Positions 4,371 to 20,298 of a DNA stretch of 20,654 nucleotides are shown piece by piece. A program made the position numbers and the translations under genes. The notes beneath the pieces were generated by a model that ran no database searches, was not told the DNA's origin, and saw only the letters and a list, made by a program, of their open reading frames with translations. The DNA comes from a virus. Numbering within the stretch: the first letter of the stretch is position 1; each line of letters opens with the position of its first letter. The stretch is taken from IMG/VR virus record IMGVR_UViG_3300048597_000474, positions 1 through 20,654 of that record, one strand, 5' to 3'.

Positions 4371-5144
4371 CTACGCCCGGGGCTTGAGCGGCGAGGGGGC
4401 GGCGTCGCGCTGCTGCTGGAAGCGGGCGGCGGCGGCGGCCACGGGGTCGGCCGGGGGCTGGCCGCCGGCGGGCTGCTGGCCGGGGAAGGCCGTCCCGGCG
4501 GGGACCGGGGCGGCGGCGGCGAGGGCCGGCAGGAAGTCGGCCCAGTGCTGCTGCGCGTAGCTGGCAAGGGCGACCTCCGCCCCGTCCTGGCCCTTGACGA
4601 AGGCGGCCGGGGCCTTCGTGCCGTTGGCCTCGACCTCCTTGACGATGAACTCCAGCGCGTCGGCGCCGGGAAGCTGGGCCAGCACGCCGGGCTTGAAGCC
4701 GGCGGCGGCGGCGGCGGCCTGCACGGCGCCCTGGCGCTTGAGGCCGGCAAGCTCCTGCTGGGACTGCTGGGCCTGCTGCACCGTGCTTTGGAGGGCGTCA
4801 GGGGCGCCGAGCTGCTGGTAGGCCGTCCACTGGGCGGCCTGCTCCCGGCTCAGCACCACGCTGCCCTCGGCGGGGGCCGCGGCGGCCAGCTGCCGGATGC
4901 GCTCGCGGTGCTGGTAGTTCTCGGAGTACAGCTGGGCGGCGAGGGCCATGGCGTCGTTGTTGGCGCGCTGGAGCGCGTTGCGCAGCCCCTCGGCGGGGTC
5001 GGGCGCGGGGGCCGGCGCGGGGGCCGGGGACGTGCCGGTCTGCGGGTTGGCCCCGCCGTCGGGCGTGAGGAACAGCAGCGGGTCGCGGCCGAGGAACGGG
5101 CGCAGGCGGGGGCCGGGGGCGGGGGCGAGCAGGCGGACGGGCAT
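4371..5144 (-). CDS. Putative capsid scaffolding protein
   Basis: 257 residues from the ATG at 5144, with GGAGGT 5-6 nt upstream. The A of the ATG is shared with the TAA of the portal gene (TAATG), so the two are coupled. The protein is alanine-, glutamine- and proline-rich. It has a predicted helical or coiled middle (LRNALQRANNDAMALAAQLYSENY, QSTVQQAQQSQQELAGLK) and disordered ends, including a repeated proline-alanine stretch near residues 38-50. That composition and the portal-scaffold-decoration-capsid order are characteristic of scaffold proteins. No Ser/His protease motif is seen, so a capsid maturation protease is less likely. It would be an internal assembly chaperone. Confidence 0.65.
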   Translation of the reverse strand: MPVRLLAPAPGPRLRPFLGRDPLLFLTPDGGANPQTGTSPAPAPAPAPDPAEGLRNALQRANNDAMALAAQLYSENYQHRERIRQLAAAAPAEGSVVLSREQAAQWTAYQQLGAPDALQSTVQQAQQSQQELAGLKRQGAVQAAAAAAGFKPGVLAQLPGADALEFIVKEVEANGTKAPAAFVKGQDGAEVALASYAQQHWADFLPALAAAAPVPAGTAFPGQQPAGGQPPADPVAAAAARFQQQRDAAPSPLKPRA

Positions 5145-6786: not shown

Positions 6787-8274
6787 TTAGTAGGTGTCGT
6801 AGCCGTCGGTGGCGGCTTCGTCGCGGGCGTCGCCGTAGGGAAGATTGAGCTGGTGGAACGCGCCCGCGGTGGCGTCAACCTGGTCGTCGTGCTTGCCGGT
6901 GGGAAAGGCGGTCAGCTCGTCGAGGTAGTCCCGGTTCCACGGGCCGGCGAGCAGCTGGACGTTGCCGGCCTGCCACTGGGCGGCGAGGGGCTCGGCCCGC
7001 TCCACCTTGTCGCCCTTCACGGGGCTGCCGAAGGCGGCGAAGCCGGCGAGCACCTTGATCACCGCATCGGTCGCCTCCTTGGCCAGGCCGGGCGGCTGCT
7101 CGATGCCGATGCGGACGTGGCCGTAGGCGTGGCGGTCGAGCTCGGCGGTCTGCCGGATAACCCGGTTGCGCTCGTCGGCCGGCCACTGGCCGCGCACGAC
7201 GTCCACCACGTACCAGGTCGTCGTGGGCGGGTGGTACGCGAGCAGCACGCCGGCGGTGTAGTCGCCCTTACCGGGCCGGGCGCCGGCCTTGTCCCAGTAG
7301 CGGGTGAAGATGCAGCCGGCGGGGTAGGCCGCGACGATCGCCACGCCCCGGCGGAACATCCCGCCGTCGCGGGGCCGCGGGCGCTGCTGGAACAGCGCCC
7401 CGAAGAAGTAGTCGCCGATGCGCCGCGCCAGCTTCTGGAGCCGCTCGACCGGGTAGCGCTCCGGGCAGAGCGCCTCGCCGTCGGCGCGCCAGTCGGGGTG
7501 GACGGTGCAGGTCGCGGGGTAGCTGGGGCGGTCGTCGGGCTCGGCGAGCGCGGGCAGGTTGACGATGTACCAGCCCTCGGGCTCGTCCTGCTCAAGGCCC
7601 AGCACGTAGCCGGTAAGGTCGGCCTCGTGCCAGCGGGTTTGGAGGATGACGATCGCACCACCGGGCTCCTCACGGGTACTGAAGACACTGCCGAACCAGT
7701 CCTGCTGCTTGCTGCGGATGACCTCGGAGGCGGCCTGCTCGGCGTCCTTGATCGGGTCGTCGATGATGCCGAGGTGGAAGCCCTTGCCGGTCGCCGGTCC
7801 GCCCACGCCGCCGGCCCAGAGGCCCCCGCCGGCCCGGGTCTGCCAGTGCTTCACCGCGCTGGCGGCCTTGTGGAGCAGGCCCCCGGCCCGCTGGTAGTTC
7901 TCGCGGGCCGCCCGGCTGAGGGTGTAGGCCAGGTCGGCGCCGTAGCTCGTGATGGCGACCCAGCGGTCGGGGTGGCGGTACAGGTAGTAGGCGGAGAACA
8001 GGCGCGAGACGGTCTCGGACTTGGAGTGGCGGGGCGGGAGCGCGATGAGCACCCGGCGCAGCTCGCCGTCGGCGACGCGCTGCAGGACGGCGATCAGCTC
8101 CGCGCAGTGGCGGTAGACCTGGTAGCGGGGGCTGACACGGGCGATGAACGCCTGGAAGCTGAGCGGGGCCTCGGCCGCCGCGGGGTCGGGGAACTGCTCG
8201 TCAAGGGCGGAGCAGAGCGACGCCCACGGATCGGCGCTCGCGGAGCTTGGTGAGAATGCGGCGCCTGGTTGCAT
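6787..8274 (-). CDS. terL: Terminase large subunit
   Basis: 495 residues, the usual length. The N-terminal ATPase domain carries a Walker A-type loop, LPPRHSKSE (about residues 79-87), and Walker B plus catalytic carboxylate, GIIDDP (about 169-174). The coupling motif lies around ILQTRWHE (about 210-217). The C-terminal RNase H-like nuclease has three acidic positions: RYWDKAG (D about 328), the IEQ segment (E about 392) and HDDQVDATAGAF (D about 463-467). All key residues are present. The start at 8274 gives a 74-bp overlap with TerS in another frame; no better start is visible inside the overlap. It packages DNA into the procapsid through the portal. Confidence 0.93.
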   Translation of the reverse strand: MQPGAAFSPSSASADPWASLCSALDEQFPDPAAAEAPLSFQAFIARVSPRYQVYRHCAELIAVLQRVADGELRRVLIALPPRHSKSETVSRLFSAYYLYRHPDRWVAITSYGADLAYTLSRAARENYQRAGGLLHKAASAVKHWQTRAGGGLWAGGVGGPATGKGFHLGIIDDPIKDAEQAASEVIRSKQQDWFGSVFSTREEPGGAIVILQTRWHEADLTGYVLGLEQDEPEGWYIVNLPALAEPDDRPSYPATCTVHPDWRADGEALCPERYPVERLQKLARRIGDYFFGALFQQRPRPRDGGMFRRGVAIVAAYPAGCIFTRYWDKAGARPGKGDYTAGVLLAYHPPTTTWYVVDVVRGQWPADERNRVIRQTAELDRHAYGHVRIGIEQPPGLAKEATDAVIKVLAGFAAFGSPVKGDKVERAEPLAAQWQAGNVQLLAGPWNRDYLDELTAFPTGKHDDQVDATAGAFHQLNLPYGDARDEAATDGYDTY

Positions 8275-10329: not shown

Positions 10330-10618
10330 AGAAGGTGCAGCCGTCGCCGCGGCACAGCGCGCAGGGGGCGGCGGGGGCGGCGTCGAGCCAGGCGAGCAGG
10401 CGATCGAGCTCGGCGGCCTCGCCGTCGAGGACGGCGGCCTGAAACTCCTGGTTCGCCAGCGTGGCGCGGGTCGTGGCGGCGGTCGCGCGGTACTTGCCGG
10501 CGAGCTGGGCGACCTCATCGCGGCGCAGGCGCAGCGACTCGCGGACGCGCTGGGCGGCGTCGAGCTCGTCGGGGCGGGGGGCGGCGGGGATGGCCGTGGG
10601 CGGGGGAGGAAGCGGCAT
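10310..10618 (-). CDS. Small helical protein with C-terminal zinc knuckle
   Basis: 102 residues, MPLPPPPTAIPA. After a proline-rich start, residues about 17-80 are helical and probably coiled (LDAAQRVRESLRLRRDEVAQLAGKY, EAAELDRLLAWL). The end is CALCRGDGCTFCG, with two CxxC pairs (cysteines about 86, 89, 94, 97) only four residues apart, a compact zinc knuckle. It starts in an ATGA overlap with the lysin stop. The function is unknown; the location suggests a lysis or DNA-handling accessory. Confidence 0.6.
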   Translation of the reverse strand: MPLPPPPTAIPAAPRPDELDAAQRVRESLRLRRDEVAQLAGKYRATAATTRATLANQEFQAAVLDGEAAELDRLLAWLDAAPAAPCALCRGDGCTFCGRPAD

Positions 10619-12018
10619 CACAGGCCCTCGTACACGTCGGCCACGAACCGCGCCCACGGGAAGCCCGCGGGGTCGGTCTTGCGGCCGGGGCTGATGTCCA
10701 GGTGGCGCACCAGGTTGCTGCGGGGGATGCGGTAGGCGAACACCAGCCAGCGAGCCAGGGCCACGGCGGCGGCGACTTGCGCGTCGGGGTAGGGGTCGCG
10801 CCCGGTGTTGAGGTTCTCCAGCTCGATCCCGATCGAGCGGGCGTTGAGCGAGCCGTCCACGGCGAGATCGCCCCACGCACTCCGCCCGGCGTGCCAGGCG
10901 GTGTCGTAGTCGGCGACGAGCTGCGTGATCTGGCCCGCCTTGCTGATGTAGTAGTGGACCGAGACGGGGTTTTCCACGCTGCCGCCCTGGCGCAGCCAGG
11001 CCAGATCCGAGGGGCCGCGGCCGGCGGTGGCGTGCAGCACGACCGCTCCGATGGCGCCGCGCTTCCGCCCGCGGGTGAGGTGGAGCCGGCTCATCGCCTC
11101 ATTCGTGACGGCGGGGCGCGTCGGGGCCACGGGGGCGGGGGCGGGGGCGGGAGTGGGAAAACGGACAACGTTGTCCGGTGCGGCGCGCCACGCGCGGCCG
11201 AACGACTCGAGGGTGGCGGCACTCAGGCGGTAGGCCGGCTGGAAGTGGGCGGGGTCGCTCCCGCCCCGCTCGTCGAGGTGGTACAGCGTGACCCCGGCGA
11301 GGTTGGCCCCGCGCAGCGTCTGGGCGTACATCGCCCCGCGCAGCGCGTCGGTCAACGGCTCGTTCAGGGCGAACTCGGTGAGCCAGATCGGCATGTCGCG
11401 GCTCACGAGCCGCCGCAGCTGCTCGATCCCCTGTGCCAGCTGTGCGACCGAGTAGGCGTGCAGGCCGAGCGCATCACAGCGGCGGGCCACGTCGGCACCG
11501 ATCGCGGTCATCCACTCCTGGCCGTGGGGGATCGCCCCGATGCGGATCGGGTGATTCTGGATGTGTGCGGGTGCGATGATCTTCGCCCCCGGGAACGCGG
11601 CGCGGCACGCGGCGATCGCCTGCTCCAGGTGCCAGCGGTAGACCCAGGCGAACGACTCGCTCGCCGGGCTGAAGCCGGGCAGCGGGTCGAGCAGGGGCTC
11701 GTTGCCGATCTCGACCCAGAACTCCCGGGCGGGGTCGCGCACCGCCCACCAGGGCCGCACCTCGGCGACGACCTGATCGGCCACGGGGTACGTGAACGCC
11801 CCCCAGGGCAGGACCGGGCCGCGGGCGACACTCGGGTCGCCGGCGACAGTGCGCACGATGGTGGCGGGGGCGAGGCGCAGGGCCTCAGCCCGCAGGCCGT
11901 CGTCCCAGGGCAGGCCCCAGCCCGTGACGACCTTCAGCACGTCGGTGTTGAGGGCCGCCGCGTGGCCGCGGAGCGAGGCGAGGTCGCGAGTGCTGGTGAG
12001 GGCGAGGCCGAGCTGCAT
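10618..12018 (-). CDS. Two-domain lysin: clan GH-A-like glycosidase plus N-acetylmuramoyl-L-alanine amidase
   Basis: 466 residues from the ATG at 12018. Residues 1-280 look like a TIM-barrel glycosidase: FWVEIGNEPLL has the NEP acid/base glutamate (about E107) and IWLTEFAL a candidate nucleophile (about E215), the clan GH-A layout. A proline-alanine linker (about 286-302) leads to an Amidase_2 (T7-lysozyme/PGRP-like) domain. That domain has zinc ligands expected at H329 (VVLHATAG), H439 and D449 (VRHLDISPGRKTDP), plus WHAG and GIELEN. It would cut both glycan and stem-peptide links of peptidoglycan. No signal peptide is visible, so export would need a holin. It is the first gene after the strong terminator at 12104-12152. 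Confidence 0.85.
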   Translation of the reverse strand: MQLGLALTSTRDLASLRGHAAALNTDVLKVVTGWGLPWDDGLRAEALRLAPATIVRTVAGDPSVARGPVLPWGAFTYPVADQVVAEVRPWWAVRDPAREFWVEIGNEPLLDPLPGFSPASESFAWVYRWHLEQAIAACRAAFPGAKIIAPAHIQNHPIRIGAIPHGQEWMTAIGADVARRCDALGLHAYSVAQLAQGIEQLRRLVSRDMPIWLTEFALNEPLTDALRGAMYAQTLRGANLAGVTLYHLDERGGSDPAHFQPAYRLSAATLESFGRAWRAAPDNVVRFPTPAPAPAPVAPTRPAVTNEAMSRLHLTRGRKRGAIGAVVLHATAGRGPSDLAWLRQGGSVENPVSVHYYISKAGQITQLVADYDTAWHAGRSAWGDLAVDGSLNARSIGIELENLNTGRDPYPDAQVAAAVALARWLVFAYRIPRSNLVRHLDISPGRKTDPAGFPWARFVADVYEGL

Positions 12019-12103
12019 AGGTGTGGTGGGCTCCCCCGCCGCCGTAGCATCAGCCCGGTGGTGGAGTAGGGCGGCAGGGTATCGCGGTCGGGGGAGCTGC
12101 GGC

Positions 12104-12152
12104 GTAACAAAACGGCCACGTTCGCGCCCGGAGAACCGGGGGAACGTGGCCG
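12104..12152 (-). terminator. Strong intrinsic terminator before the lysin gene
   Basis: Perfect 11-bp arms at 12113-12123 and 12142-12152 (CGGCCACGTTC / GAACGTGGCCG) with a smaller inner stem. On the minus strand they are followed at once by TTTTGTTA. It stops leftward transcription between the 91-codon gene and the lysin unless read-through is arranged. Confidence 0.85.
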
Positions 12153-12170
12153 CGCGGGGTTCGCTCTGGC
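12150..12170 (-). repeat. 21-bp repeat, copy 2, abutting terminator
   Basis: Identical to 12532-12552. On the minus strand it begins GCCAGAGCGAACCCCGCGCG and runs straight into the stem of the terminator at 12104-12152. Confidence 0.85.
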
Positions 12171-12188
12171 CAGCAGACAGGGACGGGA

Positions 12189-12464
12189 CTAGGCGGGGCG
12201 GACGGTGCGCTCGATGCGGGCGGTGTCGAGGCGCCCGCCGCTGTTGAGCAGGGTCACCACGTCGCCCGGGCGCAGTCCGTGCTCGTCCTTGAGGCGCTTC
12301 CAGAAGGCGGTAAGCCCCTCGCCGTCGCGCATCTTCACCGTGGCGATCACGCCCTGGTAGACGATTTCGCCGCCGGGGCCGATCGCGTAGGACGCCTGGC
12401 CGCGCTCGAAGCGGCTGAGGTCCGCCAGGCCAAGGGACAGCTGGGCTTCGTCGTGGGCGGTCAT
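12189..12464 (-). CDS. Unknown small protein flanked by two terminators
   Basis: 91 residues, MTAHDEAQLSLG, with GAGG close upstream of the ATG. The C-terminal half (FWKRLKDEHGLRPGDVVTLLNSGGRLDTARIERTV) looks like a small beta-barrel or swapped-hairpin fold in which GLRPGDVV is a frequent phrase, as in AbrB-like and other pseudobarrel DNA-binding proteins. I do not recognise a family. It is the only gene between the candidate late promoter and the lysin, bracketed by hairpins at 12499-12536 and 12104-12152. That is where a lambdoid phage would carry short leader genes. A regulatory role is possible but not shown. Confidence 0.65.
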   Translation of the reverse strand: MTAHDEAQLSLGLADLSRFERGQASYAIGPGGEIVYQGVIATVKMRDGEGLTAFWKRLKDEHGLRPGDVVTLLNSGGRLDTARIERTVRPA

Positions 12465-12492
12465 GGTGTCCTCGGGGGCTGCGACGGGGGTA

Positions 12493-12536
12493 CAACAACG
12501 CGGCGGGGCGCCTCCGTGGGGAGGACCACCGCCGCG
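12493..12536 (-). terminator. Leader hairpin/attenuator just after the late promoter
   Basis: Arms CGCGGCGG / CCGCCGCG at 12499-12506 and 12529-12536 with an inner 5-bp stem. On the minus strand they are followed by TTGTTGT. It starts only some 20 nt after the expected transcription start of the promoter at 12563-12592. Confidence 0.65.
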
Positions 12537-12552
12537 CGGGGTTCGCTCTGGC
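12532..12552 (-). repeat. 21-bp repeat, copy 1, abutting attenuator
   Basis: Exact second copy of 12150-12170. It overlaps the first arm of the leader hairpin and would lie at the very 5' end of the leftward transcript. Confidence 0.85.
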
Positions 12553-12562
12553 GTCTGTTCGC

Positions 12563-12592
12563 AGTATAGGCCATCCCCCGCCAACGGCTCAA
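12563..12592 (-). promoter_or_regulatory. Leftward sigma70-like promoter (candidate late promoter)
   Basis: On the minus strand TTGAGC (12587-12592), an 18-bp spacer, then TATACT (12563-12568). It is the only convincing promoter I find upstream of the lysin and packaging genes. Confidence 0.7.
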
Positions 12593-12620: not shown

Positions 12621-12649
12621 CATTTCCTGCCGCCAATTGGCAGGGAATG
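12621..12649. promoter_or_regulatory. Inverted repeat, operator-like
   Basis: Arms at 12621-12631 (CATTTCCTGCC) and 12639-12649 (GGCAGGGAATG) pair at 10 of 11 positions around a 7-nt centre. It lies between the divergent promoters and touches the SOS-type box. Confidence 0.55.
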
Positions 12650-12660
12650 AACACATGTTC
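12649..12660. promoter_or_regulatory. SOS (LexA)-type box
   Basis: GAACACATGTTC matches the GAAC-N4-GTTC core used by LexA of Gram-positive and related bacteria, inside a longer palindrome ATGAACA-CA-TGTTCAT at 12647-12662. It lies about 45 bp before the plus-strand -10 box and about 57 bp behind the leftward promoter. Confidence 0.65.
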
Positions 12661-12768: not shown

Positions 12769-13275
12769 ATGAGCCGTCGTATCCAGGCCCCCAATCTGGC
12801 CCCCGAAGCGGTCGCCGAGCTGCAGCGACTGCGCCAAAATATTGCGGTCGTGATCGCCAACGCCGATCAGGCCGCCCAGCACTACCGGCGCATCGACGCG
12901 GGGCTGTGCAAAAGCCTCGCCGCGCTCGGCTACGGCGAGGCCGAGGACAGCATGGCCGACGTGCGGCTCGTCCAGGGCCTCGACGACGTGCGGGGCGAGC
13001 TGGAGGCGGCCGTCACCCGCCTCGCCGCCCTGGAAACCGCCGTCGCCACGATGGCCCGCCTGTGGGGTCACGGGCCGCTCGTCAGCGAGGGGTTCGTCAT
13101 CCAGGCGAACGAGGAGTTGCGCCGGCTGCGGCGCGACATCCACGCCGCCCCGCAGGCCACGGCGACGGCGACCGCGGCCGCGGTCGGCGCCGTGCTCGCC
13201 GGCCGCCCGCTCGTCGTCGTGCCCCGTGCCGACGGCGGGGGTGACGACGGGGCCGACCTGGAGCGGGCGGCCTAG
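12769..13275 (+). CDS. Unknown helical (coiled-coil-like) protein, plus strand
   Basis: 168 residues, MSRRIQAPNLAPE, with AGGAA upstream of the ATG. Most of the chain is helical with heptad-like spacing (VAELQRLRQNIAVVIANADQAAQ, LEAAVTRLAALETAVATMARLWG, NEELRRLRRDI). An alanine-threonine hydrophobic stretch (about 132-153) and an acidic end follow. It has no cysteines, signal peptide or known motif. It is transcribed divergently from the late operon across a region with an SOS-type box, and its stop overlaps the integrase stop on the other strand. Position suggests a regulator or lysogeny-related protein; this is only inference. Confidence 0.7.
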   Translation: MSRRIQAPNLAPEAVAELQRLRQNIAVVIANADQAAQHYRRIDAGLCKSLAALGYGEAEDSMADVRLVQGLDDVRGELEAAVTRLAALETAVATMARLWGHGPLVSEGFVIQANEELRRLRRDIHAAPQATATATAAAVGAVLAGRPLVVVPRADGGGDDGADLERAA

Positions 13276-14222
13276 TCGAGGCCGAGCAGGGCGGCCAGCG
13301 CGTCGGCGTGCGGGTTCTCGTTGGCGTGCAGCGCCGACATGTAGATCCCGGTGGTCGCGGCGTTCGCGTGGCCGAGCCGGGCCTGGATGTCGCTGAGCTT
13401 CGCCCCCGTCTCCTCCAGCGTGCGGGCGAACGTGTGCCGCAGCGCGTGCACTTTGGTCGTGCCGAGATGCTTGGCACAGATCGCCCGCACCCCGGGTATG
13501 CCGATCGGCAGACCGCGGGCGTCCACCCACACCGCCCCGTCGGCGGGCAGCGTGCGCAGCTGCGGGCCGTGGGCGGCGCGCAGGTAGGCGGCCAGGCTCG
13601 CGCTGAGGCCGGCCGGCAGCGTGTCGGCCATCCGCTTCCCGCCCTTGGTGCGCGCCCAGGTGAGGGTGATCTGCGAGCCCGCGACCGCGACGTGCCCCCA
13701 GCGGAGGCCGGCGAGCTCGGCCACGCGGCGCCCGGTCTGGAGCGCCACGGCCAGCAGGCAGTAGTCGCGCTGGCCCGCCACGGTCGTGCGGTCGATCGCG
13801 GCCAGGGCGTCGCGCACGTCGGCCAGCGGCAGTGCTTTCGCCGCGGCGTAGCGCTGCACCCGCCGGCGCTCCACGCGGTCGATCGGGTTCTCGCCGGCGA
13901 ACAGCCCCTGTCGGCGGGCGAAGGCGTAGAACGAGCTGAGGATCGCGAGCCGCTGGTTGAACGTCGCCGGCGCCGGTGCGCCGCGGGCGGCCCAGCCCTG
14001 CGCGGCCAGAGCCACGGCGGGAGCGGGGGCGTCGAGGGTGAGGGCGGCGCCGTCCAGGGCGGCGCGGAAGCTGGCGAGGGTGTCGGCGTAGGCGCGGCGC
14101 GTGCGCTCGCTGCCTGTGCGCCCGGCCTTGCTCGCGACCCAGGCCGCAACGGCCAGGTCGAGGGGCGGGGTGGACGGGGCGACGACCGCCGGCAAACCCG
14201 CCGCGCGGGCGAGGTCGTGCAT
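13272..14222 (-). CDS. Tyrosine recombinase (phage integrase)
   Basis: 316 residues. An N-terminal SAM-like core-binding domain (SERTRRAYADTLASFRAAL, FNQRLAILSSFYAFARRQG) is followed by the catalytic domain with all expected residues: arginine in TGRRVAEL (about R166), lysine near TKGGK (193-196), HALRH (H259, R262), LGH (H285) and the nucleophile tyrosine in TTGIYM (Y294). The protein appears intact. The length suggests a simple XerC/D-like integrase lacking a large N-terminal arm-binding domain. The gene converges on the 12769 gene with a 4-bp overlap containing both stop codons. It would integrate and, with a directionality factor, excise the phage. Confidence 0.93.
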   Translation of the reverse strand: MHDLARAAGLPAVVAPSTPPLDLAVAAWVASKAGRTGSERTRRAYADTLASFRAALDGAALTLDAPAPAVALAAQGWAARGAPAPATFNQRLAILSSFYAFARRQGLFAGENPIDRVERRRVQRYAAAKALPLADVRDALAAIDRTTVAGQRDYCLLAVALQTGRRVAELAGLRWGHVAVAGSQITLTWARTKGGKRMADTLPAGLSASLAAYLRAAHGPQLRTLPADGAVWVDARGLPIGIPGVRAICAKHLGTTKVHALRHTFARTLEETGAKLSDIQARLGHANAATTGIYMSALHANENPHADALAALLGLD

Positions 14223-14519: not shown

Positions 14520-14545
14520 CCGCCCCCGGCACAGGCCGGGGGCGG
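14520..14545 (-). terminator. Terminator of the leftward early operon
   Basis: Perfect 11-bp arms CCGCCCCCGGC / GCCGGGGGCGG with a 4-nt loop. On the minus strand they are followed by TTGTGTGTGTG. It lies about 107 nt past the last early gene (14653-14868). Confidence 0.7.
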
Positions 14546-15672: not shown

Positions 15673-16210
15673 CGCCGTCGTCCTCCAGGGGCTGCGGGAC
15701 GTTGCGCCGGGGCGCGTTGGGGGCCGAGGTGCGGGGGCGGGCGCCTGCGGGGGCGCGGGCCGGGGCGGGGGCGGGCGGGGGCACATTCCGCGACGTCGCG
15801 GAATTTGGGGCGGGTGCGGGCGGGTCGTCGAACAGCTCGCCGTCGGGCGCGTCGGCCTCGGTGATCGCGGCGGGGCGCCGGCCGTCCAGCATGATCATGT
15901 CGACCGCCACGACCTCGACGGCCGTGCGCTCGTTGCCGTCCCGGTCGGTGTACTTCCGCGTCTGGAGGCGGCCCTCGACGTAGACCCGGGCGCCCTTGGC
16001 GAGGTACTGGTTGCAGACCTCGGCGAGCTTGTTCCAGGCCACGACCTTGAACCACTCCGTCTCTTCCTGGCTCCGCCCGTCGCGGTCCTTCCACTGGCGG
16101 CCGGCGGCCACGCTGAACGTCGTCACGGCGGCCCCGTCGGGGGTGTAGCGCATATCGGGGTCTGCACCCAGGCGGCCGATGATCATCACCTTGTTCAAGT
16201 CCCGGCTCAT
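15656..16210 (-). CDS. ssb: Single-stranded DNA-binding protein
   Basis: 184 residues. The OB-fold domain, about residues 1-112, starts MSRDLNKVMIIGRLGADPDMRYTPDG and includes EWFKVVAWNKLAEVCNQYLAKGARVYVEGRLQTRKY, the bacterial-type SSB core. A proline-alanine-rich disordered linker follows. The last residues DDGDEIPF are the acidic tip that docks partner proteins. AAAGGAA lies 5 nt before the ATG. It protects ssDNA during phage replication or recombination. The linker contains the dispersed 25-bp palindromic repeat (15782-15806). A perfect 18-bp palindrome sits 19 bp upstream of the start. Confidence 0.95.
   Translation of the reverse strand: MSRDLNKVMIIGRLGADPDMRYTPDGAAVTTFSVAAGRQWKDRDGRSQEETEWFKVVAWNKLAEVCNQYLAKGARVYVEGRLQTRKYTDRDGNERTAVEVVAVDMIMLDGRRPAAITEADAPDGELFDDPPAPAPNSATSRNVPPPAPAPARAPAGARPRTSAPNAPRRNVPQPLEDDGDEIPF
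15782..15806. repeat. Dispersed palindromic repeat, copy inside ssb
   Basis: Contains the perfect palindrome ATTCCGCGAC-GTCGCGGAAT with flanks CAC and TT. It matches the reverse complement of 20274-20298 at 24 of 25 bases, and encodes SSB linker residues NSATSRNV. Confidence 0.85.
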
Positions 16211-18746: not shown

Positions 18747-18819
18747 CGGTGGTATACTCCTGGTGGTGAAGGGGGCGGGGGTCGGTCTGGACAACTCCCC
18801 CCGCCCGCGGTCCCGGTGG

Positions 18820-19034: not shown

Positions 19035-19062
19035 ATTATATCTTGCTTTCGCTATTTGTCAA
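19035..19062 (-). promoter_or_regulatory. Strong leftward early promoter
   Basis: On the minus strand TTGACA (19057-19062), a 16-bp spacer and TATAAT (19035-19040), both exact sigma70 consensus hexamers, about 38 bp before the first early ATG. The surrounding sequence is AT-rich. The spacer holds the repeat GCTTTCGCTATT (19045-19056, read on the plus strand). Confidence 0.9.
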
Positions 19063-19080
19063 TGAACATGCTGTCATCAC

Positions 19081-19110
19081 TGAGATCGGTCACGATCTCA
19101 ACTGATCTCA
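19081..19110. promoter_or_regulatory. Operator region between the divergent early promoters
   Basis: TGAGATCG-GTCA-CGATCTCA is a palindrome with perfect 8-bp arms (19081-19100). A further half-site, GATCTCA (19104-19110), follows 10 bp after the one at 19094-19100, one helical turn away. Two copies of GCTTTCGCTATT (19045-19056 and 19111-19122) flank the site, each overlapping a promoter. Confidence 0.75.
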
Positions 19111-19120
19111 GCTTTCGCTA

Positions 19121-19149
19121 TTGACGCTTCTTTTCCCGTGTGGTATGAT
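19121..19149 (+). promoter_or_regulatory. Rightward promoter of the HTH regulator
   Basis: TTGACG (19121-19126), a 17-bp spacer and TATGAT (19144-19149), with TG one base before the -10 box (extended -10). The ATG of the HTH gene is 33 nt past the -10. Confidence 0.85.
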
Positions 19150-19181: not shown

Positions 19182-19457
19182 ATGACCACACGGGTGTTTG
19201 CATCACCGGAGGAGGCGGCGCACATCTTCGACACGACGCCGCAAACCATCCGTGCGTGGATCGCAGCGGGCAAGCTGCGAACGGCGCCCCGGCTCGGCCG
19301 GAAGCACCTCATCTACGTCGAGAGCATCGCAGAGCAGGCGGGGATCAGCGTGGAGCGGGTCAACCAGATCATCGACACGCTGGAGCGTCGGACGCGAGGT
19401 GACACAATAAATGAGCCGGGGGCCGTGATCAGTGTTGTGGGTGTTGCGACCCACTGA
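19182..19457 (+). CDS. MerR/excisionase-type HTH DNA-binding protein
   Basis: 91 residues, MTTRVFASPEEAA, with GAGAGGAGG about 9 nt upstream. Residues about 6-50 (FASPEEAAHIFDTTPQTIRAWIAAGKLRTAPRLGRKHLIYVESI) form the winged-helix HTH_17 type found in excisionases and small phage regulators. A second helical part (ISVERVNQIIDTLERR) may mediate dimerisation. Its promoter faces the early operon promoter across a palindrome, so it is the best candidate for the phage switch regulator or the excisionase. Oddly, the last 15 or so codons form the left arm and loop of a 22-bp hairpin (19413-19473), and the stop lies inside it. Confidence 0.8.
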   Translation: MTTRVFASPEEAAHIFDTTPQTIRAWIAAGKLRTAPRLGRKHLIYVESIAEQAGISVERVNQIIDTLERRTRGDTINEPGAVISVVGVATH

Positions 19458-19473
19458 TCACGGCCCCCGGCTC
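19413..19473. terminator. Large bidirectional terminator-like hairpin
   Basis: Perfect 22-bp arms at 19413-19434 and 19452-19473 (ends GAGCCGGGGGCC / GGCCCCCGGCTC) with an inner GTGGGT/ACCCAC. It sits between convergent genes. On the minus strand it is followed by ATTTATTGTG, so it best terminates leftward transcription. The HTH gene's stop codon lies inside it. Confidence 0.7.
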
Positions 19474-20273: not shown

Positions 20274-20298
20274 AAATTCCGCGACATCGCGGAATGTG
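20274..20298. repeat. Dispersed palindromic repeat, copy beside tRNA-Leu
   Basis: Near-perfect palindrome ATTCCGCGACATCGCGGAAT with flanks AA and GTG. It is the reverse complement of the copy inside ssb (15782-15806) with one mismatch, and ends 3 bp before the encoded CCA of the tRNA gene. Confidence 0.85.

Follow-up and report, generated by a model that had tools for sequence, protein, structure and literature searches.

Detailed knowledge of late antitermination comes from a small number of proteobacterial phages, and a local kind of antitermination is that of BglG/RAT, where an RNA hairpin overlapping the terminator is bound by a BglG-family protein. The Q systems of lambda and phage 21 are laid out as pR'-tR', with a promoter and then a terminator ahead of the late genes (PMC6606751). 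For AlpA of Pseudomonas aeruginosa a terminator stands directly behind the promoter and precedes lysis genes or particle genes (PMC9371919), and for GafZ of the Caulobacter GTA the terminator comes after the first gene, again ahead of lysis or particle genes (PMC11150451). The put RNA of HK022, about 70 nt long, needs no phage protein to suppress later terminators, acts processively and does not itself have the form of a U-tailed terminator (PMC9378689). The conAn system of pLS20-type plasmids, made up of the ConAn1 protein and the conAn2 RNA at the operon start, is also processive and acts over more than 20 terminators (PMC8955417). The literature that we covered on promoter-proximal terminators in other phages, which took in few subscription journals, held no direct precedent for the locus described here.

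The DNA analysed, referred to as the window, is the IMG/VR virus record IMGVR_UViG_3300048597_000474 over its whole length of 20,654 bases. A tRNA-Leu at its right end and a tyrosine integrase gene (13272..14222, minus strand; PF00589, 1.5e-19) suggest that it is a prophage. Our best explanation of the region between the lysin and the integrase is that it forms the late-gene control of a temperate tailed phage; taken jointly, with all its parts, we rate this explanation at about an even chance.

Some features elsewhere in the window can be noted here. Divergent early promoters lie at 19035-19149, one of them leftward with a perfect TTGACA-16-TATAAT; between them CTTTCGCTATT occurs twice, along with repeats of CTGAGATC, and this stretch, which adjoins the gene of a small HTH protein, looks like a lysis-lysogeny switch. 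An inverted 25-nt repeat, CACATTCCGCGACGTCGCGGAATTT, is found at 15782-15806 and 20274-20298 with 96% complementarity; one copy is within the ssb gene and the other beside the tRNA-Leu, and the repeat is possibly a recombination or host repeat site. Two strong intergenic hairpins are those at 14520-14545, which separates the early operon from the integrase, and at 19413-19473, a perfect 22-bp inverted repeat past the HTH gene. Intergenic hairpins without U-tails also occur in the window.

The late promoter and its predicted terminators in eight phages

In a consensus scan, the last good leftward promoter before the late genes is TTGAGC-18-TATACT at 12563..12592 (minus strand), which scores 9/12 and would start transcription near 12556. 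The first-pass annotation had proposed this as the only good leftward promoter; the site itself was recovered by the scan, but it is not the only one, since the early genes are preceded by a 12/12 site at 19062-19035(-). The annotation had also placed a terminator-like hairpin (12499-12536) close behind the promoter. This hairpin, T1 (12492..12536 with its tail, minus strand), does fold better than shuffled sequences (-36.4 kcal/mol over a 78-nt stretch, z -2.9, 1 of 200 shuffles as good), but its tail TTGTTGT, 64 nt past the -10 box, is a weak U-tract. The fold is stronger at T2 (12104..12152, minus strand), earlier called as an intrinsic terminator, where the value was -44.0 for an 86-nt stretch (z -3.7, none of 200 shuffles as good) and the tail, TTTTGTTA, is a fair U-tract. 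Both hairpins are treated here as predicted terminators.

The first late-operon gene past T2 is the lysin (10618..12018, minus strand), and family matches (PF01510, 4e-29; PF11790, 2e-7; PHROG endolysins) bear out its assignment, giving a glycosyl-hydrolase-like part and an N-acetylmuramoyl-L-alanine amidase. The scan gave no sigma70-like site between the two, at 12019-12103, in agreement with the earlier reading, and no further U-tailed hairpin was found on the minus strand of the late operon (12018 down to 1). The order of promoter, hairpin, 91-codon gene, terminator and lysin is therefore as first described. It is like that of the lambda Q and 21Q systems, in that a promoter, a short leader and a terminator precede the lysis and structural genes, and late expression would here too come about by read-through.

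Using the terminase large subunit (6787..8274, minus strand; phrog_38, 6e-84) as the query, we found seven related IMG/VR records with terminase identities of 61-82% (L004 82%, L009 67%, L010 65%, L011 64%, L012 62% and L013 61%; that of L017 is 65% identical to L011). No relatives of this terminase were found in bacterial genomes, and searches of viral contigs with the sequences of the lysin and of the small proteins p91 and p168 described below gave no close relatives. A check of synteny, which the first-pass annotation had proposed, bears out the promoter-terminator part of the arrangement: all seven related contigs have a -10 box at the same place and, about 40-80 nt on, a terminator, so placed that the RNA would meet its first stop after about 40-70 bases. 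This promoter-T1 unit precedes the lysis genes and, in contigs that extend that far, follows the integrase and a small divergent ORF. Most of the relatives' -10 boxes are TG-extended; that of the window has no TG. A strict rule, demanding an extended -10 and, no more than 85 nt from it, a hairpin that has a U-tail and folds at -13 kcal/mol or better, gave six matches in the eight records, all at the late promoter, with 0.23 expected from dinucleotide shuffles. The rule misses the window (no TG) and L012 (weak tail), both of which still show the arrangement.

A second terminator behind a small gene is present in the window, L004, L009, L011, L013 and L017. L010 and L012 have neither T2 nor a gene of the p91 kind, and their lysis genes follow directly after T1 or one gene later. 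Synteny in eight phages thus supports well the proposal that late genes are controlled by read-through of promoter-proximal terminators, as far as gene arrangement can indicate it. As a separate observation, the 5' part of T1 in L010 (1133-1250) and L012 (1019-1090) finds a perfect complement, of 10 and 12 nt respectively, immediately past the U-tract (6 of 500 and 2 of 500 random stretches as good), and the read-through RNA could possibly take an alternative fold in these two phages.

The exchangeable slot gene and the divergent ORF

The ORF between T1 and T2 (p91; 12189..12464, minus strand) had been called a gene from the window, and homologues in L004, L009 and L011 establish it as a real protein family. 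It matched no Pfam, PHROG or NCBIfam family and nothing in 50,697 phage records. The fold predicted by AlphaFold2, alpha-beta-beta-alpha-beta-beta with a pLDDT of 88, had no Foldseek match at E 0.001; the best VIA-align score, Z 6.8 against a portion of the peptidase domain of a collagenase, is below the level of kinship, and this relation was rejected. With no clear fold match, the predicted structure gives no function.

Across the eight records, four have a p91-family gene in the slot, two have ORFs unrelated to it, and two have none. The 87-aa ORF of L017 was rejected as a p91 homologue (hhalign probability 0.2%). L013 has an arginine-rich ORF of 65 aa (4490-4687; AKRRRTRRSKRAG), whose product could be an RNA-binding peptide. 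The late leader region of L011 also contains a tRNA-Met (CAU) gene (4845-4919), which separates the p91 homologue from T2. Because p91 is absent from L010 and L012, and replaced by unrelated small ORFs in L017 and L013, it is not the antiterminator of the whole group, and the earlier suggestion that it might supply this activity is unlikely to hold as a general rule.

Between the integrase and the late promoter lies p168 (12769..13275, plus strand), which has no family match. A small divergent ORF is found at this place in seven of the eight records (six of the seven relatives), yet no sequence similarity was detectable when these ORFs were compared with each other, p168 and that of L004 included. 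The stop codon of p168 overlaps that of the integrase (13268-13278), and overlapping stops of this kind (CTAG, CTAA or TTAA) recur in L009, L010, L011 and L017. Judged by these overlaps, integrase and divergent ORF form a tight convergent layout, which is conserved although the ORFs themselves are dissimilar. The intergenic region that separates the divergent gene from the late promoter has a palindrome, GAACACATGTTC (12649..12660, plus strand), which is the only match to GAACN4GTTC in the window, where 0.08 are expected. It resembles the Gram-positive LexA box and is possibly a LexA/SOS site; given this resemblance, DNA damage may be a further signal for late initiation.

A leader element repeated at both terminators

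The most informative feature of the locus is an RNA element that was missed by the first-pass annotation. Copy 1, GACGCCAGAGCGAACCCCGCGCGG (12532..12555, minus strand), has a mini-hairpin, GCG-AACCC-CGC, which abuts T1, and copy 2, CTGGCCAGAGCGAACCCCGCGCGG (12150..12173, minus strand), stands directly ahead of T2. The two copies have in common 18 nt, CCAGAGCGAACCCCGCGC, identical at 18 of 18 positions, whereas the hairpins behind them differ; at up to three mismatches, 0.17 matches to this motif are expected in the window. The element measures 24-26 nt and has a 4-bp mini-hairpin abutting the terminator, with only 3 bp in the window. Read off the sequences, the 3' arm of the mini-hairpin abuts the terminator stem or overlaps it by 0-3 nt.

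Beyond the window, element sites are present at T1 and T2 of L009, L011 (where the mini-hairpin is GCGG-AAACA-CCGC) and L017, and at T1 of L004. The similarity of the T1 and T2 leaders was equalled by few random stretches of the same record (per 1000: 1 in the window, 2 in L017, 3 in L013, 12 in L009 and 39 in L011); in L004, T2 is unlike T1, with 936 of 1000 random stretches as good. The leader of L013 is its own, repeated ahead of T1 and T2 with a different sequence. At T1 of L010 and L012 the element is absent, and so it is not required for the arrangement everywhere. A search of the complete L009 and L011 records gave no copies away from these sites, and no Rfam family matched the leaders or the element; for the region of the window, this was so at E 5.

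The mini-hairpin covaries. In the alignment of nine sites, standard pairs fill 92% of the pair cells (5 of 500 shuffles as good), and pairing is complete when the alignment is confined to the six sites of L009, L011 and L017 (2 of 500 as good). These samples are small, with six to nine short sites that come from three to five phages and are in part from one and the same phage. Three of the four mini-hairpin pairs show double changes, one from G-C to U-G and two from G-C to A-U, and compensatory examples are GCAG/CUGC at T2 of L009 and GCGA/UCGC at T2 of L017. The signal was much weaker in slid controls.

A covariance model built from the six sites of L009, L011 and L017, leaving out those of the window and L004, was used to search 222 kb. 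The next best matches were the two window copies (E 0.03 for copy 1 and 0.065 for copy 2, with the following match at E 0.35). The T1 element of L004 scored 14.3 bits (E 0.92), below two chance matches. With the full nine-site model all nine sites reach at least 23.0 bits, and the next match has 15.4. Two weaker candidates were rejected by eye: a possible third copy of the motif at 18773-18790 of the window (three mismatches), which is part of an unrelated hairpin, and a weak model match at 51740-51767 of L013, which lies in a transposase-like stretch.

Possible explanations of the arrangement

From these comparisons, we consider the chances about equal for and against an attenuation of late transcription at T1 and T2 that is relieved by a factor acting on the repeated RNA element. 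Host sigma70 polymerase would start near 12556; before induction it would mostly stop some 60 nt on at T1, and polymerases leaking past T1 would make p91 and then stop at T2. In the lytic programme, the factor would recognise the nascent RNA element ahead of each terminator, a small stem-loop that would stack on the base of that hairpin or slightly compete with it, and would let the polymerase pass T1 and then T2 into the lysis, packaging, head and tail genes. The factor may stabilise the mini-hairpin against the terminator base or contact the polymerase there, and candidates are an early phage protein, the product of the divergent ORF or a host protein. The architecture, its conservation, the repeat and the covariation are seen in the sequences; we infer the termination, the read-through, the releasing factor and the choice of RNA, not DNA, as its target. 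Since each terminator has its own copy of the element and the search of the window's late operon gave no additional terminators, read-through would in our view be local, not a one-time modification of the polymerase.

A more specific reading, to which we give clearly less than an even chance, is an RNA-directed, locally acting switch, in which an undescribed phage or host factor binds the mini-hairpin coaxial with each terminator, so that lysis is double-gated with an exchangeable gene between the gates. Its likeness to BglG/RAT is that a small RNA hairpin touches the 5' base of the terminator at each control point; however, the overlap with the terminator is here only 0-3 nt by inspection, there is no RAT-like Rfam match, and no BglG-like protein was among the window proteins scanned. 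HK022 put likewise has two adjacent stem-loops in a nascent leader by the promoter, whereas here a mini-hairpin abuts each terminator. With conAn the locus has in common a small protein gene and an RNA element at the start of an operon with internal terminators, but here there are two terminators, each with its own copy of the element, and the small gene is not conserved. Leader-peptide attenuation was considered and rejected, the leaders having no start codon at a consistent position.

Less probable than our main explanation, in our estimate, is a diverged antiterminator of the Q, AlpA or GafZ type, which would be loaded once from DNA at the late promoter and act processively through T1 and T2, leaving the element a secondary role. 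The gene order is that of the lambda pR'-tR', AlpA and GafZ systems (PMC6606751, PMC9371919, PMC11150451), and the -35/-10 spacing of 18 recurs. Against this, as the first-pass annotation had anticipated, no Q relative is recognisable, PF06530, PF03589 and PF06323 being absent from the eight possibly incomplete records (the PF06323 search had no positive control). A -10-like sigma-pause element, which Q-type factors need (N-A-N-N-N-T, with A2 and T6, at about -3 to +19), is missing from the first 20 nt or so in the window, L010 and L011, although by a loose rule it is present in L004, L009, L012, L013 and L017. The earlier comparison with Q-type antitermination stands for the promoter-terminator layout, seen in all eight records; with no Q homologue found in these records and no pause element in the leader of the window, it can be kept in the sense of 'works like' only. 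The regulatory neighbour is here divergent, while the Q gene is upstream and co-directional, and AlpA and GafZ bind DNA between -35 and -10, while the element here is transcribed and covaries as RNA. A DNA-loaded antiterminator also leaves unexplained the repeat and covariation of the element at T2. The RNA element repeated at two terminators is a further difference from the lambda Q system.

It is doubtful that p91 is a moron, a cargo gene that would be expressed in the lysogen from a promoter and terminator of its own, with T1 as a 5' stabilising hairpin and the late genes transcribed from an unrecognised promoter. There is indeed a promoter-gene-terminator unit, and the contents of the slot vary among the phages. 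However, L010 and L012 have the promoter and T1 without a cargo gene, with lysis genes next; the T1 U-tracts of L009, L010, L011 and L017 are strong (TTTTTT, TTTTT); T1 and T2 have the conserved element in common; and the interval between T2 and the lysin has no sigma70-like site. We also think it unlikely that promoter and T1 form the gene of a stable small RNA of about 60 nt, comparable to the lambda 6S/late leader RNAs, with late control elsewhere. The predicted transcript would be short and discrete with the conserved element at its 5' end, but the element recurs at T2 behind a protein gene, L010 and L012 keep promoter and terminator without it, and no Rfam family matches. Least probable is that the hairpins do not terminate and are mRNA processing or stabilising structures of a very GC-rich genome rich in intergenic hairpins: other intergenic hairpins of the window have no U-tails and the U-tract of its T1 is weak, but in nearly all relatives a U-tract directly follows the stem, at a fixed distance from the promoter.

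Returning to the RNA-directed switch, the site that it supposes is compact, repeated and covarying, which makes a direct test feasible. The combination of an extended -10, a terminator within about 80 nt and a repeated leader hairpin is a signature by which late promoters may be found in uncultured phages. The family of the window apparently represents an independent version of late antitermination that can be read from metagenomic contigs alone. If the proposal is true, it would give an RNA-site rule for the timing of lysis in uncultured phages.
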